Assembly (NCBI GenBank): GCA_900548895.1
Contig: URLZ01000022.1
Coordinates: 1 to 38,219, forward strand
From: an uncultured Akkermansia sp.
GTDB taxonomy: Bacteria > Verrucomicrobiota > Verrucomicrobiia > Verrucomicrobiales > Akkermansiaceae
Reading direction: 5' to 3'
Length of the DNA stretch: 38,219 bases
A model generated the notes under the pieces. It saw only the letters and a list, made by a program, of their open reading frames with translations, did no database searches and was not told the DNA's origin. Shown here piece by piece: positions 1-38,112 of this stretch. A program made the position numbers and the translations under genes. Position 1 is the stretch's first letter. Every line of letters begins with the position of its first letter.

Positions 1-592
1 GGCGCGGGCCGCAGGGGCCGCAGTCAGGACGACGCGGAGCCCACTTGCCGCAGTCAGGGCGCTGGGGCATCATGGAGCCGCAGACGATGAGGCGAACGGC
101 CTCGGCGCGACCCTGCGGGCCTTTGGGGCCCTTCGGACCCATCATGCCGGGCATACCCTTCGGGCCTTTCGGGCCCTTCATACCGGGCTTGCCTTTGGGC
201 CCCTTCGGGCCGCAGCAGGGGCAGGGCATACCCTTGGGGCCCTTCGGTCCCTTCATGTGATGTTTGCCCTTGGGTCCCTTCGGGCCTTTCATGCCGGGCT
301 TGCCCTTCGGGCCCTTCGGGCCATCCACACCGGGCTTGGGGGGCTCGGGCTTGACGATCTGCGGAGCGGGCGCGGGCGCGGGGGCCGCAGCCTGCGGAGC
401 GGGTGCCGGCGCCGGGGCGACAGCCTGCGGGGCAGGTGCCGGGGCGGGGGCATTGACCTGCGGGGCGGGAGCCGGTGCAGGGGCGGGCGCGACGGCCTGA
501 GGGGCGGGCGCGGGGGCGTTCACCTGAGGAGCAGCCTGCTGAGCCACGAGGGGCAGCGAGGCGATCAGGGAGAGAATAAATGCGGTTTTCAT
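1..592 (-). CDS. collagen-like secreted protein (3' end cut by window start)
   Basis: The frame opens at an ATG (590-592) and runs off the window without a stop, about 197 residues. Residues 1-17 form a signal peptide ([17 protein letters not shown]). Residues 22-77 are an Ala-Pro hinge made of four to five near-copies of APAPAPQ followed by VN, AV or AA. Residues 86-160 are about 23 Gly-X-Y triplets, mostly GPK-GPK pairs broken by KPGMK or GMP, with two interruptions (HHMK and CPCC). The tail has further Cys residues in two DCG motifs. No Shine-Dalgarno is seen. The likely product is an exported fibrous or surface protein that forms a Lys-rich triple helix. The function is unknown. The opposite strand also reads as Gly-Pro-rich ORFs, but only this strand has a signal peptide. 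Confidence 0.8.
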
Positions 593-681
593 GTGTAATG
601 GGAGCTTGGGCAATGGCCCTTTGGAGGTGAGAACGGCTCGGCGAGAAAAAATCTACAGCCTTTGCTTCATTTTTTTCACAA

Positions 682-713
682 AGAGGGCGACGGCTCACTC
701 GCCGCCGCCCTCT
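682..713 (-). terminator. probable terminator of the alpha/beta hydrolase gene
   Basis: A 13-bp stem (682-694 with 701-713) and 6-base loop lie just past the hydrolase stop. Position 690/705 pairs as G-U only in the minus-strand RNA, which favours action on that strand. The U-run after it is weak (CUCUUUGUG). Confidence 0.5.
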
Positions 714-771
714 GATACTGCTGTTCTCGACTGAAAATCAGGTGCGTTTGAGCTTTTGGTGCGGATGGCGC

Positions 772-1962
772 TCAGGCCTTATTTTTTTCACCCACGGGCA
801 TGTTCTGCTTCAGGAAGCTGTCGATGCTGTCGAAGGGGATGAGGCGGTCGTAGAGGTCGGTGTGCACGGCGCCCGGAACGATGATGAGTTTTTTGTTGTC
901 GCCCTTGAGCTTGCGGAAGGCATCCTCACCGAAGTAGCGCGAGTGCGCCTTTTCCCCGTGCACGATGAGCACGGCGCTGCGGATTTCATCGGCATAGGCG
1001 AGCAGGGTGCCGTTGAGCAGGCTGATGGCGGAGGTGGTGTTCCAGCCGGCGTTCGAGTTGAGTGAGCGCGGGTGGTAGCCGCGCGGGGTCTTGTAGTAGT
1101 CGTAATAGTCGCGCACGAAGGCGGGCGCGTCTGCCGGCAGGGGATCAACGACGCCGCCGGCGCGCTGCGGGCTGCCGTTGCGGTAGTCGAGGGTGCGCTG
1201 GGCGCTGAGCTTCTCGCGCAGGCGCTGGCGGGCTTCGGGGCTGTCATCGGCGTCGAAGTAGCCGCGGGCGGTGACGCGGCACATGTCGTACATGGTGGAG
1301 GCGACGGTGGCCTTGATGCGCGTGTCGACGGCGGCGGCGTTAATGGCCATGCCGCCCCAGCCGCAGATGCCGATGATGGCGATGCGCTCCGGGTCGACGT
1401 CCGGGTGGGTGCTCAGGTAGTCGACGGCGGCGCAGAAGTCTTCGGTGTTGATGTCGGGGGAGGCGACGTTGCGCGGCTCGCCGCTGCTCTCGCCGGTGAA
1501 GGAGGGATCAAAGGCGATGCAGAGGTAGCCGCGGGCGGCCATGGTCTGGGCGTAGAGGCCCGAGCACTGCTCTTTGACGGCGCCGAAGGGGCCGCTGACG
1601 GCGATGGCCGGCAGGGGTGCCGCAGCGCCTTTCGGGCGGTAGAGGTCCGCGACGATGGTGTTGCCGAAGCGGGTGCGGAAGCTGATTTTGCTGTGTTCAA
1701 CGCGCGGGTCGGCCGGGAAGGTTTTGTCCCAGTCGGCGGCGCTCGGGGCGGTGGTGTTGGGCGATGAGCTCATGGTTTGTGAGGGGGTGGATGGGTTGTT
1801 GCCGGTGTTGGCAGCGGTATTGGCGGGGGTATTCGCCGCGGCGGCTGCGGGAGCAGAGGCCGGGGCGGGAGCCGCGGGCGGCGGTGCGGGGGCGGCGCTG
1901 TCGGCGAGGGCCGGTCGCCAGAGCAGCAGGAGGGCAGCGAGGGTGATGACGTTCAGTTTCAT
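772..1962 (-). CDS. secreted alpha/beta hydrolase (YcjY/dienelactone-hydrolase-like)
   Basis: 396 residues. The ATG at 1962 is chosen because it begins a clear signal peptide (MKLNVITLAALLLLWRPALA); the longer open frame upstream overlaps the promoter. An Ala/Pro/Thr/Asn-rich linker of about 60 residues precedes the hydrolase fold. The nucleophile elbow reads GICGWGG, so the nucleophile would be Cys rather than Ser, as in dienelactone hydrolases and many YcjY-type proteins. The likely catalytic His lies in PGAVHTDLYD and an acid near VHGEKAHSR. The substrate is unknown. It is divergent from a MerR regulator whose operator sits in this gene's promoter, so it is probably the regulator's target. 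It is exported, unlike most YcjY relatives as I recall them. Confidence 0.82.
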   Translation of the reverse strand: MKLNVITLAALLLLWRPALADSAAPAPPPAAPAPASAPAAAAANTPANTAANTGNNPSTPSQTMSSSPNTTAPSAADWDKTFPADPRVEHSKISFRTRFGNTIVADLYRPKGAAAPLPAIAVSGPFGAVKEQCSGLYAQTMAARGYLCIAFDPSFTGESSGEPRNVASPDINTEDFCAAVDYLSTHPDVDPERIAIIGICGWGGMAINAAAVDTRIKATVASTMYDMCRVTARGYFDADDSPEARQRLREKLSAQRTLDYRNGSPQRAGGVVDPLPADAPAFVRDYYDYYKTPRGYHPRSLNSNAGWNTTSAISLLNGTLLAYADEIRSAVLIVHGEKAHSRYFGEDAFRKLKGDNKKLIIVPGAVHTDLYDRLIPFDSIDSFLKQNMPVGEKNKA

Positions 1963-4984: not shown

Positions 4985-7222
4985 TTACAGCAGGGTGACG
5001 GCGATGTTGAGGCCGGCCGTCACGATGGAGACCATGCTCATGAGCTTGATGAGGATGTTCAGCGAGGGGCCCGAGGTGTCCTTGAAGGGATCGCCCACGG
5101 TGTCGCCCACGACGGAGGCGTCGTGAATCGGCGTGTGTTTGCCGCAGAAGGGGGCGTCGCCGGTCTCGATGAACTTCTTGGCGTTGTCCCAGGCGCCGCC
5201 GGAGTTGGCCATGAAGACGGCCAGCACGAAGCCGCCGGCCAGACCGCCGGCCAGCAGGCCGAACACGCCGGGCACGCCGAGCACGATGCCGGTGAGAATC
5301 GGGGTGACGACGGCGATGAGAGACGGGATGATCATCTCGCGCTGGGCGCCCTGGGTGGAGATGCCCACGCAGCGGGCGTAGTCGGCCTTCTTGCGGCCTT
5401 CCAGCACGTCCTTGTCCGAGAGCTGACGGCGCACTTCCTCAACCATGCTCTTGGCGGCGCGGCCGACGGCGTTCATCGTCAGACCGCAGAAGAGGAAGGA
5501 GAGCATGGCGCCGATGAAGATACCCAGCAGTACCTTCGGGTTCATGAGGGTGACGTCGAAGGCTTCCATGAACTCCGCGATGCCCATCTTCGAGAGGGCC
5601 TCGCTGCTGATGATGGTGCCGCCGGCCACTTCGACCGTCTCGCCGAGCTTGAGGGCGGCAATCTTGAGCTCTTCGATGTAGGAGGCGAGCAGGGCGAGGG
5701 CCGTGAGGGCGGCCGAGCCGATGGCGAAGCCCTTGCCGGTGGCGGCGGTGGTGTTGCCGAGGGCGTCGAGGGCGTCGGTGCGCGAGCGCACGTCCTCACC
5801 GAGGTTGCTCATCTCGGCGTTGCCGCCGGCGTTGTCGGAGATGGGTCCGTAGGCGTCCGTGGCCAGGGTGATGCCGAGGGTGGAGAGCATGCCGACGGCG
5901 GCGATGCCGATGCCGTAGAGGCCCTGGTTCATGTTGTCGGTGGTGAAGGCGAATTCACCCGCCGCGCAGAGGTAGGCGCCGATGGTGCCGATGACGATGA
6001 AGATGACGGGCCAGCAGGTCGAGATCATGCCGGTGCCGATGCCCGAGATGATGACGGTGGCGGGGCCGGTCGTCGCGTTTTCGGCGATGAACTTCACGGG
6101 CTTGAACTCAAAGGAGGTGTAGTATTCGGTCACCTTGCCGATGGCGATGCCGACGATGAGGCCGATGATGATCGAGCCCCAGAGGCCGAGCCAGTTGTTG
6201 ATGCCCAGCAGGTAGAGCACGCCGAGGGAGGCGAGGGCGATGAGAACGCCCGAGATGTTGATGCCGAGGTTGAGGGCGCCCATGAGCTGGCTCTGGCTGG
6301 CACCGGGCTTGGTGCGCACGAGGAAGATGCCGATGATGGAGAGGATGGCACCCACGGCACCGATGATCATCGGGGCCATGACGGCCTTGAGGCCGTCGCC
6401 GTAGCTGAGGCCGGCAGAGGCGGCTGCCGCGGCACCGAGGGCGGCCGAGGCGAGGATGGAGCCGGCGTAGGATTCGTAGAGGTCAGCGCCCATGCCGGCC
6501 ACGTCGCCGACGTTGTCACCGACGTTGTCCGCGATGGTGGCGGGGTTGCGGGGATCATCTTCGTTGAAGTGATACTCCGTCTTGCCGACGAGGTCGGCGC
6601 CGACGTCGGCAGCCTTCGTGTAGATGCCGCCGCCCACGCGGGCGAAGAGGGCCTGCAGGGAGGCGCCCATGCCGAAGGTCAGCATGATGGTGGTGATTTG
6701 CACGAGGTCGCTGACGTTTTCGCCGTTGAGGCCGAAGGCCGGAATCTTGCTGAGGATGAGGTACCAGGCCGAGATATCGAACAGACCGAAGCCCACCACC
6801 GTCAGGCCGAGCACGGCGCCGGAGCGGAAGGCGAGCTGCAGACCCTTGTTGAGGCCGTCCTTTTCATCGCGGCAGGCCTGAGCCACGCGCCCGGAGGCGT
6901 AGGTGGCCGTCTTCATGCCGATGAAGCCCGCCAGACCGGAGAAGATACCGCCGGTGAGGAAGGCCACGGGGACGATGTTGTTCTGCATGTTGAAGTAGGC
7001 CATCACCGCGAAGATGAGGGCGATGATGATGAAGAAGATGCCGACGATTTTGTACTGCTGCTTGAGGTAGGCCATGGCGCCTTCGCGTACGTAGCCGGCG
7101 ATTTCCTTCATGCGATCCGTGCCCTCATCGGCCTTCTTCATGCTGAAGAAGAAGATGGCTGCAAAGAGCAGCGCGACGATGGAGGCCACGGGAACGATCC
7201 AAAATAGTGTTTCGGTGGTCAT
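4985..7222 (-). CDS. hppA: membrane-bound, K+-dependent, ion-pumping pyrophosphatase
   Basis: 745 residues with about 16 membrane helices. It hydrolyses pyrophosphate and pumps cations across the inner membrane. Seen: the pyrophosphate site with DVGADLVGKTE (207-216), DDPRNPATIADNVGDN and VGDVAGMGAD; and GNTTAATGKG, with Ala and Gly at the positions that are Lys and Thr in K+-independent enzymes. Glu250 in DLYESYAGS is at the helix-6 position used by Na+-pumping enzymes; plant H+ pumps have it four residues later. Thr90 and Phe94, with Asp149 and Met180, resemble the four residues reported for pumps moving both Na+ and H+. It is a single-gene unit with its own promoter and terminator. Confidence 0.95.
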   Translation of the reverse strand: MTTETLFWIVPVASIVALLFAAIFFFSMKKADEGTDRMKEIAGYVREGAMAYLKQQYKIVGIFFIIIALIFAVMAYFNMQNNIVPVAFLTGGIFSGLAGFIGMKTATYASGRVAQACRDEKDGLNKGLQLAFRSGAVLGLTVVGFGLFDISAWYLILSKIPAFGLNGENVSDLVQITTIMLTFGMGASLQALFARVGGGIYTKAADVGADLVGKTEYHFNEDDPRNPATIADNVGDNVGDVAGMGADLYESYAGSILASAALGAAAAASAGLSYGDGLKAVMAPMIIGAVGAILSIIGIFLVRTKPGASQSQLMGALNLGINISGVLIALASLGVLYLLGINNWLGLWGSIIIGLIVGIAIGKVTEYYTSFEFKPVKFIAENATTGPATVIISGIGTGMISTCWPVIFIVIGTIGAYLCAAGEFAFTTDNMNQGLYGIGIAAVGMLSTLGITLATDAYGPISDNAGGNAEMSNLGEDVRSRTDALDALGNTTAATGKGFAIGSAALTALALLASYIEELKIAALKLGETVEVAGGTIISSEALSKMGIAEFMEAFDVTLMNPKVLLGIFIGAMLSFLFCGLTMNAVGRAAKSMVEEVRRQLSDKDVLEGRKKADYARCVGISTQGAQREMIIPSLIAVVTPILTGIVLGVPGVFGLLAGGLAGGFVLAVFMANSGGAWDNAKKFIETGDAPFCGKHTPIHDASVVGDTVGDPFKDTSGPSLNILIKLMSMVSIVTAGLNIAVTLL

Positions 7223-7590: not shown

Positions 7591-9525
7591 TCAGTTGTCG
7601 GGGAAGAAGGTGTTGAGGTTGTTGAAGCGCAGGGCCGGGGGGATGTCGAGGTCATCGCTGTCGAGGCCGCGGCCTTCGGCGCTCTCGCGCGGGTGCCCGT
7701 CGCGGAAGAGGCGGCGGCCCTGAGTCGGCGGCGGGGCGTCGTCATGCGGCTCGGACTCGCTCATGAGTTCTCCCTGACGCAGAGAGGAGGCCGAGCCGGC
7801 GGGGCGCTCGCCGAAGCGCTCATCGATTCTCTCGTTGAGGCGCTCATCGATGCGGGTGCCGCTCAGCGGTGTCTCGGGGGAGCTCTGGGGGCGGCGGTGC
7901 TCGGCGGCCTCGCGGCTAAAGCGCGGGGCGCGGTCGCTGCCGACGTCAAAGAGGCTCTCGGGCTCTTCATCGGCGGGGCCGTCGTCGAGCACCGAGGGGG
8001 CGGCTGCCGGGCGGGGGAAGCGCTCGGGCGCCTCGCTGTCGTCGATGACGTGCCAGGGTTCGCGGGCACGCTCGTCGTGAGCGTCGCTGTACTCGGGCTC
8101 CTCGGGCTCGAGCAGGGGCTCGCCTCGGTGCAGAGAGGGCTCCTCCTGCGGGGCGTAGGGGGCTGTGGGACGGGGCTCCGGGGCGGCCGCTCGGGCGCCG
8201 AGACGGGCGCCTGCGCCGCTCTCGCGGTCGGCGCGGGCGGGCTCGCCCTGCGCGGCGCGGTCGCGGGTGTCGGTGCCGAGGGAGCCGTGGGAAGTGTTGG
8301 CGGGGGCTTGGGCTGCCGGGGTGTGGGCGGGGGCTGCGCCGGCCGCCGATCGGCCGCTGCCCTCGGTGCGGGCGGTATCGCGGGGCTCGGTGTTGCGGGG
8401 CTTGACGTCTGCCGCGGCGTTGAGGACGTCGTCGGCTCCCTCAGCGCCCTCGCCGGCTTCGCTGGTGCCGTCGCTTTCCTCGTCGCCGTCTGCGTTGGCG
8501 CCGTCGTCGGGCTTCTGGTCCGGGGCCGGAACGGGGGGATTTTCAATGGCCTGCCGGAGCTCTTCGCCGTTGATGGAGGCGATGAGCGTCATGCGCATTT
8601 CATCGCCGAGGTGGGGCTTGACGGAGGTGCCGAAGTAGAGGGTGACGTCGTCGTCGGCCAGGGCCTGGCGCACGGTCTCCATGGCGGTGCGGACTTCGGT
8701 CAGCGACATGTTGTCGCCGCCGGCGACGTGCGCGATGACGCAGCGCGAGTAGCGGATGGCGTTGTGGAAGGCGAGCAGGGGCGATTGCAGGGCGGCGCGG
8801 GCGGCGCTTTCGGCGCGGTTGGCGCCGTAGCCGCTGCCCGAGCCGAAGAGGCAGCGCGAGTCGCTGTTCTCCAGCGCGGTGGCCAGTTCGTCGAGCCCGA
8901 GGTTGATGAGGCCGGGCGAGGAGGCGAGCATGGGCACGGAGGCGGTGGCTTTGGCCAGCAGGCGGTTGACTTCTTCAAAGACGGCCCGGGCGCCGGAGCG
9001 CCCGCGGAAGAGGTCTTCCATGTAGTCGTTTTCAAAGCAGTAGACGATGTCGGAGAGCTGGGAGACGTCTTCGAGGGCGGCGTCGGCCTGCGCGCGGCGC
9101 CGGCGGCCTTCGAAGGCGAAGGGCATGACGGCGACGGTGACAAGGAAGAGGCCTTCGTCTTTGGCGAGGCGCGCGAGCATGGGGGCGGCGCCGGAGCCCG
9201 TGCCGCCGCCGAGGCCGACGACCATCACGAGCAGGCGCGCGCCGCGGATGAGGCGGCGGATCTCGCCCTCGCTTTCCGCGGTGGCGCGGCGGCCGACTTC
9301 GGGGTCACCGCCGGAGCCGAGGCCGTGGTTGAGCCCGGCGCCGAGTTGCAGGAATTCGACGTTGCCGCTGTTTTGCCCGACGCGTTCGTCGAGGGACATG
9401 GTGCAGAGGCGCACGTTGGCGGCGCTGGAGCCGCCGAAGCACTGGAGGATGTTGGCGCCGGCGCCGCCGATGCCGACGATGACGATGCGGTCATCTTGCC
9501 GGATGCTGGTTTGATAGGGGAGCAT
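7591..9525 (-). CDS. ftsZ: cell division GTPase FtsZ, divergent, with long C-terminal tail
   Basis: 644 residues, against about 350-400 usual. FtsZ polymerises with GTP into the division ring. Seen: VGIGGAGANI (17-26), the tubulin signature GGGTGSG (106-112), MPFAFEGRRR (134-143) and ND in ENDYM. Odd: the T7 loop, NVDFAD in E. coli, reads NLGLDE (208-213), so the two catalytic aspartates appear replaced by Gly and Glu, with an extra Asp between. The position of E. coli Asp187 (guanine contact) aligns with Asn, as in tubulin. From about residue 330 a linker of nearly 300 residues rich in Ala, Pro, Glu, Asp and Arg ends in DLDIPPALRFNN, a recognisable FtsA-binding peptide. The gene follows ftsA after 133 bases. 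Confidence 0.95.
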   Translation of the reverse strand: MLPYQTSIRQDDRIVIVGIGGAGANILQCFGGSSAANVRLCTMSLDERVGQNSGNVEFLQLGAGLNHGLGSGGDPEVGRRATAESEGEIRRLIRGARLLVMVVGLGGGTGSGAAPMLARLAKDEGLFLVTVAVMPFAFEGRRRRAQADAALEDVSQLSDIVYCFENDYMEDLFRGRSGARAVFEEVNRLLAKATASVPMLASSPGLINLGLDELATALENSDSRCLFGSGSGYGANRAESAARAALQSPLLAFHNAIRYSRCVIAHVAGGDNMSLTEVRTAMETVRQALADDDVTLYFGTSVKPHLGDEMRMTLIASINGEELRQAIENPPVPAPDQKPDDGANADGDEESDGTSEAGEGAEGADDVLNAAADVKPRNTEPRDTARTEGSGRSAAGAAPAHTPAAQAPANTSHGSLGTDTRDRAAQGEPARADRESGAGARLGARAAAPEPRPTAPYAPQEEPSLHRGEPLLEPEEPEYSDAHDERAREPWHVIDDSEAPERFPRPAAAPSVLDDGPADEEPESLFDVGSDRAPRFSREAAEHRRPQSSPETPLSGTRIDERLNERIDERFGERPAGSASSLRQGELMSESEPHDDAPPPTQGRRLFRDGHPRESAEGRGLDSDDLDIPPALRFNNLNTFFPDN

Positions 9526-12129: not shown

Positions 12130-13569
12130 TCAGGGCGCCGGCGTGGGGGCGGAGTAATTGACTCGCGGGATGTCGCGCTTCTCGTCGAGGATGCGGCGAT
12201 CGTCCCAGCCGCCGCCGAGGGCCGAGCAGAGGCGGGCGAGCGTCTTGCGGATCTCCTGACGGGTGGAGATGATGTTGAGCTCCGAGCTCAACCACGAGCG
12301 CTCGGCGGTGGCGACGTTGAGGAAGTCCGTGTTGCCGACCTCGTAGAGGCGCTCGGAGATCTCGGCGGCGCGCTTGTTGGCGTCGGCCGCGGCGATGTAT
12401 TCCGGCAACTGGTTGACGAGCTGGGCGTAGGTGATGAGGCAGTCCTCCACCTCGGCGAAGGCGGCCAGCACCGTCTTGCGGTACGACTGGGCCGAGGAGC
12501 TGGTGCTCAGCTTGGCTTGCAGCACGTTTTCATTGAGGCTCGTGCGGTTGAGCAGGGTGGTGGCGGCCGAGGCCGCGAGGCTCCAGCCGGCGCTGCGGAA
12601 GAAGTCGGCGAAGTCACTGCTTGAGCCGGCGCTGGTGCTGCCGGTCAGCGAGATGTTCGGGAAGAGGTTGGCCACCTCGACGCCAATGCCGGCGACCTCA
12701 GCGTGCAGGGAGTATTCAGCGCTGATGATGTCCGGGCGGCGGCGCAGCAGGTCGGAGGGCAGGCCCGTGGGCACGCGCGGGATGAGGTTGTAGACCGAGG
12801 GGGAGGGAAGCGTGAGCTTGATCTGATCAACCGTGGTGCCGAGGTAGGTGGCCAGCGCGTTGCGGCAGCTTTCGATCTGGGCGCGCAGCGCGGGGATCTG
12901 CGCGCGGGTGGCGGCGATGGTGGCCTGGGACTGGGCGAGCGCCAGCCCGGTGTCCATGCCGCTGCGCGCGCGCTCTTCGGTGCGGCGGTGGGTGCGCTCC
13001 TGATAGGCGAGCTGCTCTTCGGCGACGCGCAGGCTCTCGCAGGCGGAGATCCAGTCAAAGTAGGTGGTGGCGACGCTGCTGGCCAGCGCGACGCGGCTCG
13101 CGGCGGCTGCGGCGTAGTCCGAGTGCAGCAGGGCGACCGCGGCTTCGATGCTGCGGCGGGTCTTGCCCCAGACGTCGGGGGACCAGGAGGCGGAGAGCGC
13201 ACCGGTCCACTTGCCGTGCGCGGTCGAGTTCTCAAAGCTGCCGCTGTTGCTGCCGCCGGCGCTGATGCCCAGCGACGGGAAGAGGTCGCTGCGGGTGCTG
13301 CGCAGGGCGGACTCGCCCTTGAGGATGTTGAGCAGGGCCGTGATCTCATCCGGGTTGTTGCGGAAGGCCGTGGTGATGAGGTCGTTGAGCTGGGGGTCGC
13401 CGAAGCTCTCCCACCAGCGCGTCAGAGATGTTTCATCGCTGGCGGGGGGCATGTCATTGACCCAGGTGACGGGCAGACGGACGTCTTGCACGCCTTTGTA
13501 GTCCGGCCCGACGAGGCAGGAGCTGCTCAGCAGAGCGATGAGGGTGAGGCAGATGGCGGAGCGTTTCAT
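12130..13569 (-). CDS. outer-membrane efflux lipoprotein (TolC/NodT family)
   Basis: 479 residues. The lipoprotein signal MKRSAICLTLIALLSSSC is followed by LVGPDYKG, typical of NodT-type channels (OprM/CusC relatives). Two repeated halves of long alpha-helical hairpins follow (about 60-260 and 270-460), with the family motif RRRPDIISAEYSLHAEVAGIGVEVANLFPNISLTG. The trimer would form the outer-membrane and periplasmic exit duct for substrates pumped by the MacAB-like genes upstream. It is the last gene of the operon, 246 bases after the permease; that spacer holds tandem repeats. Confidence 0.93.
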   Translation of the reverse strand: MKRSAICLTLIALLSSSCLVGPDYKGVQDVRLPVTWVNDMPPASDETSLTRWWESFGDPQLNDLITTAFRNNPDEITALLNILKGESALRSTRSDLFPSLGISAGGSNSGSFENSTAHGKWTGALSASWSPDVWGKTRRSIEAAVALLHSDYAAAAASRVALASSVATTYFDWISACESLRVAEEQLAYQERTHRRTEERARSGMDTGLALAQSQATIAATRAQIPALRAQIESCRNALATYLGTTVDQIKLTLPSPSVYNLIPRVPTGLPSDLLRRRPDIISAEYSLHAEVAGIGVEVANLFPNISLTGSTSAGSSSDFADFFRSAGWSLAASAATTLLNRTSLNENVLQAKLSTSSSAQSYRKTVLAAFAEVEDCLITYAQLVNQLPEYIAAADANKRAAEISERLYEVGNTDFLNVATAERSWLSSELNIISTRQEIRKTLARLCSALGGGWDDRRILDEKRDIPRVNYSAPTPAP

Positions 13570-13612
13570 GGCGGAACGAGTGGGGGGTGGACAAAGAGAT
13601 GCGCTGGAGATC

Positions 13613-13687
13613 GCGGCAGGTGAGGAAGCGGCGGGCGCGGAAGCGGCAGGTGAGGAAGCGGCAGGTGAGGAAGCGGCAGGTGAGGAA
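13613..13687. repeat. 15-bp tandem repeat between permease and channel genes
   Basis: Five consecutive 15-bp units. Four are identical (GCGGCAGGTGAGGAA, starting 13613, 13643, 13658, 13673) and the one at 13628 is a variant; a degenerate sixth follows. The array lies 44 bases upstream of the tolC-like start. Confidence 0.95.
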
Positions 13688-13735
13688 GCGGATGGCGGGG
13701 ATGCGAACGATGGGGATGATTCGAAGGATTTGAAC

Positions 13736-13780
13736 GATTCGGATGATTCGGATGATTCGGATGATTCGGATGATTCGGAG
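13736..13780. repeat. 9-bp tandem repeat (GATTCGGAT)
   Basis: Five head-to-tail 9-bp units; the last differs by one base. It follows the 15-bp array in the same spacer. Neighbouring sequence (about 13700-13735) looks like decayed copies. Confidence 0.95.
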
Positions 13781-13815
13781 AAGGCCGGGGCTCGTGAGGT
13801 TGCCGGCGGGCGGCT

Positions 13816-15189
13816 TTACTCGTGGTGGAGGGCGTCGATGGGGTCGAGCTTCGAGGCCTTGTAGGCGGGGTACCAGCCGAAGACGATGCCGATGACGGCC
13901 GAGACGCTCACGGCCAGCAGCATGGCGGCGGGTGAGGATTCGACGGGCAGGCCCGTCTTGGCGGCGACGATGAGCGAGATGGTGCGCCCGAGGGCGATGC
14001 CGAGGATGCCGCCGGTGAGGCAGAGCAGGACGGCTTCGAGCAGGAACTGCCACATGATGTCGCGCGGGCGGGCGCCCACGGCCATGCGCAGGCCGATTTC
14101 GCGCGTGCGCTCGGTGACGGAGACCATCATGATGTTCATGATGCCGACGCCGCCGACGACGAGCGAGATCATGGCCACGGCGATGAGCAGCGTGCTCATG
14201 GTGTCGGCCGTTGAGGTGACCATCTTGGTGAACTGGGCGCGGTCGCGCAGGTTGAAGTCATCGAGCACGCCGGGCTCCAGGCGGTGCTGGCGGCGCAGCA
14301 CAACGGCCATGTCGTCCATAGTCTGCGGGATGGTCTTGACGTCGCGCACCTTGACGCTGACGAAGTCCACAGTGACCGTGCGCAGGGGGTGCGGGGCGCT
14401 GGTGTAGGGCTGCAGGTCGTTGCCGGTGCCGGGGTAAAAGTCCACGGCGCTCGTGGAGAAGGTGCCGGTGGAGGAGACGCTGCTGCTGTTGGCCGCGCCG
14501 CCCTTGCTGATGGTCGCCTCGTTGCTGGCGCCTTTGAGGCGCGTGCGGATGCTCGACCAGGGCAGGATGATGCAGTCGTCCTTGTCATTGCCGCCCATGT
14601 CCGCACCCTTCGTGGCGAGCACGCCGATGACGGTGAACATGACGTCCTTGATGCGGATGTCCTGCCCGATGGGGTCCTGCCCGTCGAAGAGCTCGCGGGC
14701 GATGGTGCTGCCGATGAGGCAGACGCGCGCGGATTTCTCCACGTGCTCCTTGGTGAAGGCGGTGCCGGAGGCCACTTCCCAGCCCTCGATGTCGAGGTAG
14801 TTCTCGTTGCCGCCCATGATGGAGTTGGGGTTCCAGTTTTTGTTGCCCACGATGACTTGGGCACTGGCGCGCACGACGGGGGTGGCCGTCAGCACGGTGT
14901 CGCTGCACTCCTTCATGATGGCGTCGGCATCCTCGGCGTAGATGGAGGCGCGGGTGTTCATGCCGCCGCTCACGCCGGCGGTGCGCGTCGAGGCGCTGAA
15001 GACGTTGATGACGTCCGCGCCGAGGCCGGCCATCTGGTCGGCGATCTGTTTTTTGGAGCCGTTGCCGATCTCCATGATGGCGACGACGGCGGCGATGCCG
15101 ATGACGATGCCGAGCACGGTGAGCATGGCTCGCATCGGGTTGCGGATGAGCGCGTTGATGCAGGTGAGCAGCAGGGGGCCGAACTTCAT
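13816..15189 (-). CDS. macB: MacB-type ABC transporter permease
   Basis: 457 residues. An N-terminal helix (about 20-42, AMLTVLGIVIGIAAVVAIMEIGNG) precedes a large periplasmic domain (about 45-330), then three helices near the C-terminus with MMVSVTERTREIGLRMAVGA, the FtsX/MacB signature. Unlike E. coli MacB the ATPase is a separate gene, the common split form. The periplasmic domain has a Ser/Thr/Gly-rich stretch (GGAANSSSVSSTGTFSTS). As a dimer it drives a mechanotransmission pump, exporting peptides, lipids or drugs from the periplasm. Its ATG overlaps the ATPase stop (ATGA), so the two are translationally coupled. Confidence 0.95.
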   Translation of the reverse strand: MKFGPLLLTCINALIRNPMRAMLTVLGIVIGIAAVVAIMEIGNGSKKQIADQMAGLGADVINVFSASTRTAGVSGGMNTRASIYAEDADAIMKECSDTVLTATPVVRASAQVIVGNKNWNPNSIMGGNENYLDIEGWEVASGTAFTKEHVEKSARVCLIGSTIARELFDGQDPIGQDIRIKDVMFTVIGVLATKGADMGGNDKDDCIILPWSSIRTRLKGASNEATISKGGAANSSSVSSTGTFSTSAVDFYPGTGNDLQPYTSAPHPLRTVTVDFVSVKVRDVKTIPQTMDDMAVVLRRQHRLEPGVLDDFNLRDRAQFTKMVTSTADTMSTLLIAVAMISLVVGGVGIMNIMMVSVTERTREIGLRMAVGARPRDIMWQFLLEAVLLCLTGGILGIALGRTISLIVAAKTGLPVESSPAAMLLAVSVSAVIGIVFGWYPAYKASKLDPIDALHHE

Positions 15190-15893
15190 TTCTGCAGGGT
15201 GGCTGATAGTTCTTCAGAGACGCCTTCGAGGATGAGGCCGTCGCTCATGTTGATGGCGCGGTCGGTGAAGGCGGCGGTCTTGGGGTCGTGCGTGACGATG
15301 ATGACGGTGAGACCCTTGCGGCGGTTGAGCTCGCGGAACATGTTCATGACTTCGACCGAGGTGGTGGAGTCGAGGTTGCCGGTGGGCTCGTCGGCGAGCA
15401 GGATGCCCGGGTTGTTGATGAGGGAGCGCGCGATGGCGACGCGCTGCTGCTGGCCGCCGGAGAGCTGCGCGGGGGTGTGGTGCATGCGCTCTTCGAGGCC
15501 GACGAGGCGGATGAGCTCGAGCGCGCGGCGGCGGATCTCGGCGTTGGGCAGCGCCGGGTGGTGGTAGGCCGCCGGCATCATGACGTTCTCGAGTGCCGAG
15601 GTGCGCGGCAGCAGGTTGAAGTTCTGAAAGACGAAGCCGATGCGGTCGTTGCGCAGGCGGGCGCGCTGGTCGGCGTTGAGCCCGGCGACGTTGCGGCCGT
15701 CAATCCAGTACTCGCCGCCGCTGGGGTGATCCAGGCAGCCGAGAATGTTCATCAGGGTGGACTTGCCTGAGCCCGAGGCGCCCGTCAGCGAGACGAACTC
15801 CCCGTCCTCGATTTTCAGCGAGATGCCTTTGAGCACGGGCAGGTCGATTTCGCCCAGGTGGTAGACCTTGGTGATGTTTTTGAGTTCGATCAC
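15186..15893 (-). CDS. MacB-type ABC transporter ATPase
   Basis: 235 residues, the normal size for a LolD/MacB-type ATPase. The start is taken as GTG at 15893 (MIELKNITKVYHLGEID), because the frame upstream is repeat-rich and non-conserved. Seen: Walker A GASGSGKST, Q-loop FVFQNFNLLPRTSALENVMMPA, signature LSGGQQQRVAIARS, Walker B ILLADEPTGNLD, and the switch His in IIVTHDPKTA. It powers the permease encoded next to it, whose start overlaps this stop by 4 bases. Confidence 0.95.
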   Translation of the reverse strand: MIELKNITKVYHLGEIDLPVLKGISLKIEDGEFVSLTGASGSGKSTLMNILGCLDHPSGGEYWIDGRNVAGLNADQRARLRNDRIGFVFQNFNLLPRTSALENVMMPAAYHHPALPNAEIRRRALELIRLVGLEERMHHTPAQLSGGQQQRVAIARSLINNPGILLADEPTGNLDSTTSVEVMNMFRELNRRKGLTVIIVTHDPKTAAFTDRAINMSDGLILEGVSEELSATLQK

Positions 15894-16339
15894 GGTCGGA
15901 GGAGGTTGAAGAGGTGAGTCCGGCGCGCGCTTGCGCCGAGAGGCGGTGCTGTGGTGATGAGGCGGTGCTGTTACGACTGAACGGTGCTGTTGCGGAACGG
16001 TGCTGTTGCGGAACGGTGCTGTTGCGGAACGGTGCTGTGTTGCGGCAGGGCGGGCCGGATAGCGGTCCGGCTGTGGCGGAAAGGAGGCCCGTGCCGCGGA
16101 AGACCTGCGCCGACGCCGAGGGAGCCTGAGGCTGCGCCGAAGGTCCGTGCGAGGAGGGAGAGGCCCCTGCACTCTCGCCGATGCCCGCCCGCGGCCGCCC
16201 CTTGTCACGGCGGGGCGCTGCGGGCAAAGCCCGAGCCGAGCGGACGCGGCTCCCTTCATCCCGCGCCCGTCAAGCGGGCTCGCCGGGTGGCGGAGCCGCT
16301 GTCGGGGTGCCGGGGAGCCGGAGTCCCTCGGGCGGGGCA
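15894..16339. other. 446-base spacer inside the efflux operon
   Basis: This lies between the adaptor and ATPase genes. It holds the 16-bp tandem repeat (15944-16040) and otherwise GC-rich sequence with no conserved coding potential. Such a long gap inside a pump operon is unusual. I see no promoter in it. Confidence 0.6.
15944..16040. repeat. 16-bp tandem repeat (GGTGCTGTTGCGGAAC)
   Basis: GGTGCTG recurs at 15944, 15964, 15983, 15999, 16015 and 16031. The last three steps are exactly 16 bp with identical units; the first are diverged (20 and 19 bp). It ends about 50 bases upstream of the ATPase GTG. Confidence 0.93.
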
Positions 16340-17902
16340 TCAGTTGGGGGGCGGACCGCCGGGGCCGCGAGCGCCCTTGGTGTCCTGGCCGGGCTTGGCC
16401 TCAACACCGCCGGTGCCGCGCGGGCGGCGCTCCGGGCGCTTGGGGCCGAAGAGGTTCGTCTCACCCTTGGAGGCCACCGTCTCCGTCTGCACGGCCTGAC
16501 GCTCCACGCCGGTGACGAGCAGGGTGTTTTCATCGAGGCTCTCGCCGGGCAGCAGGCGCACGATGCTGCGCGCGCCGTCGCTCGTGCCGCGCAGCACGCG
16601 CACGGGGAAGAGCTTGCCGTCCTTCTGCTGCGTCCAGACAACCGCGGGGCTGTAACTCACCGCCTCTTCGGCCGGAGCTTCGGCAGCCTCGGCAGAGCCG
16701 TCAGCAGCATCGTCTGCCGCCTGCTCAGCGCCCTCGGCGGGCGCCTGATCGGAGGGCGCGGCGCCCTCGGGAGCCGGCGCACCGGCGGGCGGGGCCGGGC
16801 GGCGCTTGAGCGCCTCGGCGGCACCGGGGGCCAGCATGTCAGGCGAGGGCTTGAAGCTGAAGGCGGCGTCGGGAATCATCAGCGCATCCTTCTGCTCAAA
16901 GACAATGAAGTTCGCGTTGGCGCTCATGTAGGGCAGCAGCTTGCGATCCGGGTTCTCGATGTCCACCTCGACAATGTAGGTGACGACGTTGGAGCTCATC
17001 GTCGCGTTCGGGCGAATCTTGTTGACCGTGCCCGTGAAGTTCTGATTCGGCATGGCATCCACCGTGTAGCGCACAAGCTGCCCGGGGCGAATCTTGGCGA
17101 TGTCGGCCTCATTGACGCTCGTCCAGATCTGCATGTGGCGCAGGTCGCGCGCGACGAGGAAGAGGGTGGTGGCGCTCATGTTGCTCACGACCGTCTGGCC
17201 GACGTTGACCTGGCGCACCACGATGGTGCCGTCCACCGGGGTGGTGATGCGCGTGTAGTCGCGGTTGCGCAGCTCGCTCTTCAGCTGGGCCTGCGCGCTG
17301 AGCAGCTGGGCGTCGGCGTTCTGCTGCTGCGCCTCGGCGGTCTCCAGCTGGGCCTTGGCGGACTCGAGGTTAGCGGCGGCCGTCTCGCGCGCGTTGATGT
17401 ACTGGTCGTAGTCCATCTGCGAGAGTGCATCGCCGACGCCGAGTTTCTCCGCACGCTTGAAGTCGCGCTCCGCGCGGTTGAAGTTGGACTGCGCCTGCTG
17501 AATGCCGGCCTTGGCGGAGCTCACGGCGGCGGCCGCTGAAGCAATCTGCGCCTTGGCCTGCGCCACGCTGGCCTCCGCGCGCTGGATGTCGAGCTCAACG
17601 ATGGTGTCGTCGATGCGCGCCAGCAGCTGCCCGGCCTTCACCTCGCTGCCGTAGTCGATGCGCTTGCCGTTCAGATCGGTGCCGAACTCCTTGATTTCGC
17701 CCGTCACCTGAGCGCCGACGTCGACGAGCTCGCTCGGCTCAAGGGTGCCCGTGGCCTGCACCTTGTCGGTAAAGACGCCGCGCACGGGTTTGGTCGTTTT
17801 GAAGCGGAAGCTCTGCTGCTCGTCTTCGCCGAGCAGATACCAAGCCCCGACGCCCGCCGCACAGACGGCTCCGGCTATTCCCCATCGGTAAATTGCTTTC
17901 AT
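16340..17902 (-). CDS. macA: periplasmic adaptor of the efflux pump (MacA/HlyD family)
   Basis: 520 residues; MacA is usually about 370-400. The ATG at 17902 starts MKAIYRWGIAGAVCAAGVG, an inner-membrane anchor. Next come a lipoyl half-motif (about 40-100), a coiled-coil hairpin (about 100-215, Ala/Gln-rich), the second lipoyl half (TRITTPVDGTIVVRQVNVGQ, 217-236) and the beta-barrel with membrane-proximal domain. Odd: residues about 352-418 are an Ala/Pro/Glu-rich insertion inside the membrane-proximal domain, and the C-terminus is a basic Gly/Pro tail. The protein bridges MacB and the TolC-like channel. It is the first gene of the operon and has a near-consensus promoter. Confidence 0.92.
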   Translation of the reverse strand: MKAIYRWGIAGAVCAAGVGAWYLLGEDEQQSFRFKTTKPVRGVFTDKVQATGTLEPSELVDVGAQVTGEIKEFGTDLNGKRIDYGSEVKAGQLLARIDDTIVELDIQRAEASVAQAKAQIASAAAAVSSAKAGIQQAQSNFNRAERDFKRAEKLGVGDALSQMDYDQYINARETAAANLESAKAQLETAEAQQQNADAQLLSAQAQLKSELRNRDYTRITTPVDGTIVVRQVNVGQTVVSNMSATTLFLVARDLRHMQIWTSVNEADIAKIRPGQLVRYTVDAMPNQNFTGTVNKIRPNATMSSNVVTYIVEVDIENPDRKLLPYMSANANFIVFEQKDALMIPDAAFSFKPSPDMLAPGAAEALKRRPAPPAGAPAPEGAAPSDQAPAEGAEQAADDAADGSAEAAEAPAEEAVSYSPAVVWTQQKDGKLFPVRVLRGTSDGARSIVRLLPGESLDENTLLVTGVERQAVQTETVASKGETNLFGPKRPERRPRGTGGVEAKPGQDTKGARGPGGPPPN

Positions 17903-17942
17903 CTTGCAAGTTCTGGTAACGCCAATTTTTCGCACAATCTAC

Positions 17943-36624: not shown

Positions 36625-38112
36625 ATGATCAAACACGTCGTAATCGGGTTGATCGGCGCAACAGCGCTGTCTGCCGCCGCTTTGGCCGATGGAGCCCTCA
36701 AGGAAGCAGCCATGACACATCAGAAAAACATTTCTGTTGAAAACACCGCAGCCGTTACCCCGCGTCCCGCCGGCTCCATCTACATGGGCGGTTTCCGTGC
36801 ACCGGCCATCGAGTGCGTGCGTGTGGCGGTGATCGGTCTGGGCGAGCGCGGCCTGCCCCAGACGGAGCACTTTGCGGCGATCCCCAACTGCGAGGTCGTC
36901 GGTGTGTGCGATATCTACAGCGATGCGACGGACCAGGCCGCCGACTTCATCGAGAGCAAGACGGGCAAGCGCCCGAAGGAATACAGCGGCGATCCGAAGG
37001 CCTACCTCAAGATGCTCAAGGAGCTTCGCCCCGACGCCGTGATCATCAACACGCCCTGGGAGACCCACGCCCAGATGGCCATCGACGCGATGGAGAACGG
37101 CGCGCACGCCTTCGTCGAAGTGCCGCTGGCGCTGACGCTCGAGGACCTGTGGCGCGTCGTCGACGCCTCCGAGCGCACGAAGCGTCACTGCATGATGCTC
37201 GAGAACGTCAACTACGGCCGCGATGAGCTCATGTTCCTCAACATGGTGCGCCAGGGCCTGATCGGCGAACTGCTGCACGGCGAGGCCTCCTACATCCACG
37301 AACTGCGCATGCAGATGAAGAGTGAAGATCGCGGCTGCGGCTCGTGGCGCACCTACCACTACGCCGGCCGCAACGGCAACCTCTACCCCACCCACGGCCT
37401 CGGCCCGGTGGCGCAGTACATGAACATCGCCCGTACCGATGACACCTTTGACCGCATCGTCTCCTTCGGCAGCCCCGCGCTCGGCCGCGCCGCCTACGCC
37501 AAGAAGAACTTCCCGGCGGATCACAAGTGGAACCAGCTCGAGTACCGCTGCGCGGACATGAGCACCTCCATCATCAAGACCAAGGCCGGCCGCACCATCC
37601 TCGTGCAGTGGGATGAGACCAGCCCCCGCCCCTACGACCGCAAGAACCTGATTCAGGGCACCGAGGGCACGCTGGCCGGCTTCCCGACCCGCGTCGCCGG
37701 TGAGCGCATCGGCTACAGCGCTATCGAGGCCAAGACCAAGAAGGCTGCTGAGGAAGGCCAGCCCGGCGGCAAGGAGATCGCCAACCTCGGCGGCTACCAC
37801 CGCTGGTACGAGGGCGAGGAGGCCCTGAAGGACTTGTACAGCCAGTACGACCACCCCCTCTACAAGCGCCTCGGTGAGGCGGCCAAGAAGAACGGCGGCC
37901 ACGGCGGCATGGACTACATCATGCTCTACCGCGTCATCGAATGCCTGCACAAGGGCGAGCCGCTCGATCAGAACGTCTATGAGGGCGCCCTCTGGTCCGC
38001 CGTCGGCCCGCTGTCCGAGAAGTCCGTCAACGAAGGCGGCGCTCCCCAGGTGTTCCCCGACTTCACCCGCGGCGACTGGAAGACCACGGCTCCGCTTCCC
38101 ATCATCGAGTAA
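36625..38112 (+). CDS. secreted GH109 family glycosidase (alpha-N-acetylgalactosaminidase type)
   Basis: 495 residues with a Sec-type signal (about 1-22). The Rossmann domain binds NAD: VAVIGLGERG (67-76), with the Gfo/Idh/MocA EVPLALT loop at 165-171. The C-terminal domain has GSWRTYHYAGRNGNLYPTHGLGPVAQY, with His257 at the position of the proposed catalytic His in the Elizabethkingia enzyme, and GGHGGMDYIM. GH109 enzymes cleave terminal alpha-GalNAc, as on blood group A and mucin glycans, by a redox-assisted mechanism with bound NAD. A. muciniphila has two such genes, which fits the predicted host. Exact sugar preference cannot be read. Probably controlled by the divergent AraC regulator. 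Confidence 0.92.
   Translation: MIKHVVIGLIGATALSAAALADGALKEAAMTHQKNISVENTAAVTPRPAGSIYMGGFRAPAIECVRVAVIGLGERGLPQTEHFAAIPNCEVVGVCDIYSDATDQAADFIESKTGKRPKEYSGDPKAYLKMLKELRPDAVIINTPWETHAQMAIDAMENGAHAFVEVPLALTLEDLWRVVDASERTKRHCMMLENVNYGRDELMFLNMVRQGLIGELLHGEASYIHELRMQMKSEDRGCGSWRTYHYAGRNGNLYPTHGLGPVAQYMNIARTDDTFDRIVSFGSPALGRAAYAKKNFPADHKWNQLEYRCADMSTSIIKTKAGRTILVQWDETSPRPYDRKNLIQGTEGTLAGFPTRVAGERIGYSAIEAKTKKAAEEGQPGGKEIANLGGYHRWYEGEEALKDLYSQYDHPLYKRLGEAAKKNGGHGGMDYIMLYRVIECLHKGEPLDQNVYEGALWSAVGPLSEKSVNEGGAPQVFPDFTRGDWKTTAPLPIIE

Follow-up and report, generated by a model that had tools for sequence, protein, structure and literature searches.

The ftsZ locus

The window (the whole stretch of DNA analysed, 38,219 nucleotides, from an Akkermansia gut bacterium) carries ftsZ at 7591..9525, where an earlier sequence-only reading had placed it, and the gene lies on the minus strand, running from 9525 to 7591. 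Its features and the adjacent ftsA are listed below, with residues numbered as in the window protein unless a species is named.

9525..7591, minus: ftsZ, 644 aa, ATG start, stop codon at 7591-7593; Pfam PF00091 109.1 bits, PF12327 64.3 bits
9659..10867, minus: ftsA, upstream of ftsZ on the same strand; TIGR01174 251.3 bits, over its cut-off
9382..9390, minus: D46-E47-R48 of T2/H2; Asp46 is retained, and Arg stands in place of Gln48, which is a K+ ligand in S. aureus
9190..9210, minus: GTP-binding signature GGGTGSG, residues 106-112, intact; Ser at this place is noted in V. spinosum too (PMC1845146)
9097..9099, minus: Arg143 (E. coli R142), catalysis-assisting in S. aureus; kept
8965..8967, minus: Asn187, equivalent to E. 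coli Asn186 and B. subtilis Asp187; an ordinary residue
8887..8904, minus: T7 loop NLGLDE, residues 208-213 (E. coli 207-212), with D209G, A211D and D212E in E. coli numbering
7669..8550, minus: Ala/Pro/Glu/Arg-rich linker, residues 326-619, delimited by composition and low identity to congeners
7594..7656, minus: C-terminal peptide DDLDIPPALRFNNLNTFFPDN, an FtsA-binding-like part followed by a clade-specific ending

Both domain scores of the window FtsZ exceed the Pfam gathering scores (33 bits for PF00091 and 27 bits for PF12327, FtsZ_C). The score for the NCBIfam equivalog TIGR00065 was 207.9 bits, under the cut-off of 295.2, and the protein was therefore named a divergent, non-canonical Verrucomicrobiota FtsZ. 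Tubulin-like side families (FtsZl, tubulin_2 and TubZ) are told by the absence of both an FtsZ_C match and a division-gene neighbourhood; as FtsZ_C is present and ftsA adjacent, they were rejected for the window protein. Among the 20 loci found in the species-genome collection (16 Akkermansia, two uncultured bacterium, one Verrucomicrobiales and one archaeon), the closest FtsZ was that of Candidatus Akkermansia intestinigallinarum (L001; 89% in the core). The AlphaFold2 model of the core (mean pLDDT 82.2) has the FtsZ fold: the best 50 Foldseek matches were FtsZ entries throughout, with B. subtilis 2rhj and S. aureus 3wgj at ranks 1 and 2 (TM 0.81-0.86). In this monomer model T7 comprises residues 203-210 and helix H8 starts from 211, and the least confident core block is 201-210 (T7; mean pLDDT 60).

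The tail of about 300 residues pointed out by the sequence-only reading is present as the linker, though it is ordinary in length among relatives, as V. spinosum FtsZ has 673 aa and the longest open frames of the genus 676. The linker is 26-39% identical to those of four congeners, against 68-90% for the core, and is probably disordered, judging from its Ala/Pro/Glu/Arg-rich composition. The FtsA-binding tail peptide could likewise be recognised by resemblance (DDLDIPPALR, against E. coli DYLDIPAFLR), so that a neighbouring ftsA and a putative FtsA-binding peptide are both present. Many Akkermansia tails carry NDLRDMF beyond the FtsA-binding-like DLDxPPxLR; by coarse patterns, the 74 tails of the genus contained DLDxPPxLR in 49, NDLRDMF in 43, both in 23, NDLRDMF only in 20 and neither in 5 (two of them cut by contig ends). 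In about 20 of the 74 genomes, an NDLRDMF(P)-like ending apparently replaces DLDxPPxLR (L144-L209 tails, by the same coarse patterns).

Elsewhere in the window, a proton-pumping pyrophosphatase (H_PPase, 844.6 bits) lies directly downstream of ftsZ at 4985-7222 (minus), a tripartite efflux set occupies 12130-17935 (minus; NodT/TolC-like outer-membrane protein, MacB-type permease and ATPase in separate ORFs, HlyD-type adaptor), and the product of 36625-38112 (plus) combines a glycosyl hydrolase 109 C-terminal domain with a GFO_IDH_MocA domain.

Active-site residues in the window protein and in Akkermansia

By phmmer, GLINLGLDELAT of the window protein aligned gap-free to GLINLDFADVKT in the FtsZs of B. 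subtilis and S. aureus. A MAFFT alignment of 137 rows that included E. coli agreed on D209G, A211D and D212E, with N207 kept (E. coli numbering here and below). The substitution of NLGLDE for E. coli NVDFAD, on which the earlier reading had centred, was confirmed by both alignments, and the canonical T7 NxDxxD with both catalytic Asp residues is absent. Window numbers at T7 equal those of S. aureus (N208, G210, D212, E213). Two substitutions beyond those reported before were found: N43S, and Q47R at the position of the K+ ligand Q48 of S. aureus. The E. coli state is kept at D45, T108, E138, R142, N165 and F182. The G-box GGGTGxG, stated earlier to be intact as GGGTGSG, is present together with N24, T108, E138, R142, N165 and F182, which we take to be the nucleotide contacts of FtsZ. 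A further claim, that the guanine-contact Asp187 had become Asn as in tubulin, arose from a register slip by one: the column of B. subtilis Asp187 (B. subtilis/S. aureus numbering), presumably the guanine-contact residue, holds Asn186 in E. coli and Asn in the window protein. As Asn stands there in E. coli too, a tubulin-like guanine contact was dismissed. At the level of aligned residues, the GTP-binding half of Akkermansia FtsZ was shown to be largely conventional, and the hydrolysis half-site contributed by the adjacent subunit was shown to be rebuilt.

FtsZ was found in 74 of 76 genomes of the genus and in none of the remaining two; exactly one FtsZ over the family cut-off was present in each of the 74. 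G209, D211 and Asp or Glu at 212 occurred in 74/74, the loops being NLGLDE (39), NIGLDE (16), RVGLDD (9), NLGLDD (4), QVGLDD (4), RLGLDD (1) and RIGLDD (1). The genomes with RVGLDD or QVGLDD measure 2.7-3.3 Mb, and A. muciniphila is probably among them. R47 was present in all 73 readable rows, and R142 in 73 of 74. In the first protein search, the best 120 of 3173 matches, the window's own protein among them, all had N[LI]GLDE, R47, D45 and R142. A third protein search started from an RVGLDD protein; its nearer matches (P0243-P0326, for the most part lacking taxonomy) all combined G209 with an acid at both 211 and 212 (84/84). Sequencing error or chance was dismissed as the source of the T7 change, given the motif in these best 120 homologues and in all 74 genus FtsZs. 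Within the sampled genus the loop is fixed, and the implication that it is a peculiarity of this gene did not hold.

The core has a dN/dS of 0.07-0.13 against three congeners (saturated against a fourth) and by this measure is under purifying selection. As the core is so constrained and a single FtsZ occurs in 74 of 76 genus genomes, the window FtsZ should work; together with the upstream ftsA, these data agree with the earlier statement that the gene looks functional. The ftsZ gene of V. spinosum is described as essential, as is the disordered C-terminal extension of its product (PMC12283558). A pseudogene was dismissed on the dN/dS and the conserved motif. It is extremely improbable that the gene is non-functional or decaying, or that the changed loop is an alignment or sequencing artefact: the TIGR00065 score below cut-off could be read in that direction, but only 11 of 115 genomes of the phylum reach this cut-off, the ORF is intact, the pairwise alignments are gap-free at T7, and the low dN/dS and the motif in 120/120 of the best homologues speak against it as well.

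A second FtsZ supplying hydrolysis was also dismissed, as one match over the family cut-off was found in 74 of 76 genus genomes. Extra matches under the cut-off (20.8-28.4 bits) occurred in six genus genomes; the one in genome G147 is probably the second fragment of a split gene, and L210 (405 aa), inspected by eye, is a different tubulin-like protein, unlike FtsZ. This extra tubulin-like protein of about 390-405 aa (PF00091 21-23 bits) appears in a few Akkermansia genomes, at 31-1248 (minus) in L210 and as matches of similar length in genomes G146 and G151.

The T7 loop across Verrucomicrobiota

The first 30 controls comprised E. coli, B. subtilis, two IMG/VR contigs (the two FtsZs yielded by a scan of IMG/VR viral contigs), 12 plasmid-record FtsZs (Pseudomonadota, Bacillota and Actinomycetota; chosen by eye for diversity among 60 listed of 117) and 14 over-cut-off FtsZs from an archaeal-phylum sample; D209 and D212 were both present in all of them. 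Added to these were 34 remote homologues from the third protein search (P0327-P0360), with both Asp residues in 30, D209 in 33 and at least one in 34; the four without one canonical Asp are unassigned to a phylum. Combined, the 64 controls, whose bacterial part is of modest breadth without deliberate Bacteroidota or Cyanobacteria, had both Asp residues in 60 and at least one in 64. L173, L229-L235 and L237 were dropped (24-70 bits by phmmer, unalignable at T7), and the best 120 matches of an E. coli-seeded protein search, near-identical and mostly enterobacterial, were kept out.

FtsZ was found in 114 of 115 Verrucomicrobiota genomes searched (genome G109 gave no match). The 114 rows exclude L141-L143, weak second matches of genomes already counted; left out of the rows of the 137-row alignment were L058 (E. 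coli itself), L020 (archaeal) and L021-L027 (duplicate genes of earlier loci). D209 with an acid at 212 was present in 19 rows, D209 alone in 57, a 212 acid alone in 35 and neither in three, namely L115, L129 (long branch) and L140 (gapped at T7). An acid at 209 or 212 was therefore retained in 111 of 114 rows, the full N207-D209-D212 triad in seven, and T7 variants included NLDFAT, NQDFSS, NITFAD, RIGFDD, PLTLQD and NLGLDE. Alignment across phyla confirms the changed loop but not its restriction to this gene, since 95 of 114 phylum rows depart from the two-Asp T7. Of the two residues regarded as indispensable for GTP cleavage, the window protein has lost one and altered the other. As this site is also remodelled in most sampled members of the phylum, what was considered invariable among bacteria seems to have been rebuilt in this group.

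D209 and a 212 acid were strongly anti-associated in these related rows (Fisher 3e-12). A quick IQ-TREE phylogeny of 119 rows, made with the T7 and T2 columns removed (34 of 116 forks open), implied at least 12 changes at D209 and at least 13 at the 212 acid. On this single quick tree the Pagel dependent model outperformed the independent model (p 0.002, or 0.001 when ten long branches were removed), and the loss rate of the 212 acid lay at its lower bound after D209 loss. A stricter independent-pairs test of 209 against 212 was not significant (7 pairs, median p 0.25). An either-or rule, by which one acid is rarely lost once the other has gone, is likely from these comparisons, but not proven.

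Thirty-eight positions that are at least 93% conserved in the 64 controls were scored in the 114 phylum rows. E138, G105, G107 and D45 were conserved in 96-100% of rows, whereas N43 (31%), D212 (41%) and D209 (67%) were reduced; N207 and Q47, just under the 93% bar in controls (92% and 91%), fell to 32% and 25%. Judged by residue conservation, the half-site for hydrolysis and K+ ranks with the most altered regions of FtsZ in the phylum sample. Residues of the GTP-binding site were below control levels too (G109 62%, G20 67%, F182 81%, T108 82%, N165 83%), as were R142 (75%), A243 (9%) and F99 (18%). We know of no catalytic role for A243 or F99. As binding-site and non-catalytic positions drift as well, general divergence contributes.

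An acid at 211 tends to accompany G209, being present in 16 of 18 G209 rows and in 8 of the 96 other rows (Fisher 7e-12, with related rows and kinship uncorrected); L039 (GLAD) and L084 (GFSD) have G209 without it. Strict coupling of Arg47 to Gly209 was dismissed, as R47 occurs with D209 in L043, L049 and L057 and Q47 with G209 in L034 and in 5 of the 84 nearer matches; the association rests on essentially one clade. The G209 rows with Q47 suggest that G209 came first and R47 later.

Several other loops were observed. A clade with DAER-like T7 (L108, L119, L124, L128, L130, L132-L134 and L136) keeps D209, has Arg (once His) at 212, and carries Glu at 211 except in one member. T7 reads QTTLGD, without N207 and D209, in L053 and L056 from two 0.9 Mb genomes (G063 and G043). 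L135 and L137-L140 are extremely divergent FtsZs that score 46-71 bits against TIGR00065, and their T7 can hardly be aligned.

Possible routes of GTP hydrolysis

In S. aureus filaments, D210 swings and positions the attacking water, D213 and R143 assist, and K+ is held by N208 and Q48; D46, Q48, R143, N208, D210 and D213 are described as conserved between species (PMC8936486). In S. aureus, assembly is suppressed by D210N and likewise by D213N, and GTPase is about 6-fold lower with Q48A (PMC8936486); E. coli D212A is cited as having 7% of GTPase left (PMC8142252). As these mutants are impaired, the earlier suggestion that GTP turnover may be slow or rewired is reasonable. Glu254 of alpha-tubulin stands at what we take to be the position of FtsZ D212. 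It is the catalytic T7 residue of alpha-tubulin (PMC13394414). From the S. aureus, E. coli and alpha-tubulin data, we infer that hydrolysis could proceed via Glu212, the acid at 211, Arg142 and Arg47.

The best explanation, to which we give an even chance, is a functional FtsZ with a rebuilt and probably slower hydrolysis site, in which the acid has moved from 209 to 211 and is joined by Glu212 and Arg47. The swinging catalytic Asp (S. aureus D210) would have become Gly, and its job would pass to the acid two residues on (A211D) plus the Glu at the second-Asp position (212). Arg at the K+ site, instead of Gln, would supply or replace the cation, and Arg142 would take part in GTP hydrolysis with Glu212, Asp211 and Arg47. 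Hydrolysis would still occur at the subunit interface, probably more slowly, and filaments may be longer-lived. Fixation of the motif in the genus (G209, D211 and D/E212 in 74/74; R47 in 73/73 readable) supports such a site. Against a rebuilt working site, Asn is tolerated at neither Asp in S. aureus (PMC8936486); some G209 proteins have no acid at 211 (L039, L084), and the drift of G109, G20, T108, F182 and N165 in the phylum argues against rebuilding specific to the hydrolysis site.

The impaired mutants would also suit a hydrolysis-poor scaffold, in which GTP binding drives polymerisation, very little GTP is split and the ring is renewed by means other than GTPase-driven treadmilling: S. 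aureus FtsZ assembly is suppressed when a catalytic Asp is lost (PMC8936486), the E. coli mutant has the cited 7% of GTPase (PMC8142252), and in the phylum sample hydrolysis residues vary although four GTP-binding residues hold at 96-100%. We consider this unlikely, as an acid at 209 or 212, needless in a dead hydrolysis site, is kept in 111 of 114 phylum rows, and Arg142 in 73 of 74 genus rows. Normal rates, with Glu212, Arg142 and main-chain groups doing the work of D209 and D212 and the other loop changes neutral, would accord with the use of Glu254 by alpha-tubulin (PMC13394414) and with the 35 of 114 phylum FtsZs that have a 212 acid without D209; Asp211 and Arg47 are nevertheless fixed together in the genus sample, beyond what a neutral loop would lead one to expect, and we regard normal rates as improbable.

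FtsZ catalysis has been described from few model species, and Verrucomicrobiota offers many natural substitutions in functional-looking proteins, which makes two questions testable: whether the chemistry requires both carboxylates, and whether division requires GTPase-driven turnover. Akkermansia is culturable. We tentatively propose, at somewhat less than even confidence, that in Verrucomicrobiota the two-Asp site held to be universal has been repeatedly dismantled and rebuilt in an either-or manner, a carboxylate at 209 or 212 sufficing; that in at least one clade the catalytic acid moved to 211 and the K+ ligand became Arg; and that these bacteria divide by a different hydrolysis chemistry or with little hydrolysis, possibly a step toward the FtsZ-less division of Planctomycetota and Chlamydiota. 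Verrucomicrobiota are described as FtsZ-bearing neighbours of FtsZ-less phyla (PMC12283558). In the accessible parts of the open-licence literature on FtsZ, no description of the T7 change in Verrucomicrobiota was found; those of a PVC division review do not contain 'T7 loop' (PMC5147048), nor those of an FtsZ conservation review 'Verrucomicrobi' (PMC9939409).

With S. aureus, B. subtilis and E. coli FtsZ, the Akkermansia protein shares the tubulin/FtsZ fold, GGGTGxG, D45, E138, R142, N165, N207, an FtsA-binding-like tail and, as in E. coli, ftsA next door; unlike them, it lacks D209 and has D211 with E212, Arg47, Ser43 and a linker of about 300 residues. Alpha-tubulin presumably retains Asp at the D209 position, unlike Akkermansia FtsZ. 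The feature shared with alpha/beta-tubulin is the Glu at the alpha Glu254 position, which completes the neighbour's site (PMC13394414). V. spinosum FtsZ (673 aa) has in common a long C-terminal extension, Ser in GGGTGSG and a long branch, and is essential in that species (PMC1845146, PMC12283558). The 2007 text on it counts eight unusual core positions, in the part available without naming T7 (PMC1845146), and T7 may be among the eight. Nitrosopumilus maritimus FtsZ is likewise said to be without the conserved NVDFAD T7, but differs in lacking a conserved GTP-binding motif and did not polymerise in the test described (PMC3684127). N. maritimus probably divides by Cdv proteins (PMC3684127), whereas Akkermansia FtsZ retains the GTP-binding motif, and no second FtsZ was found beside it.
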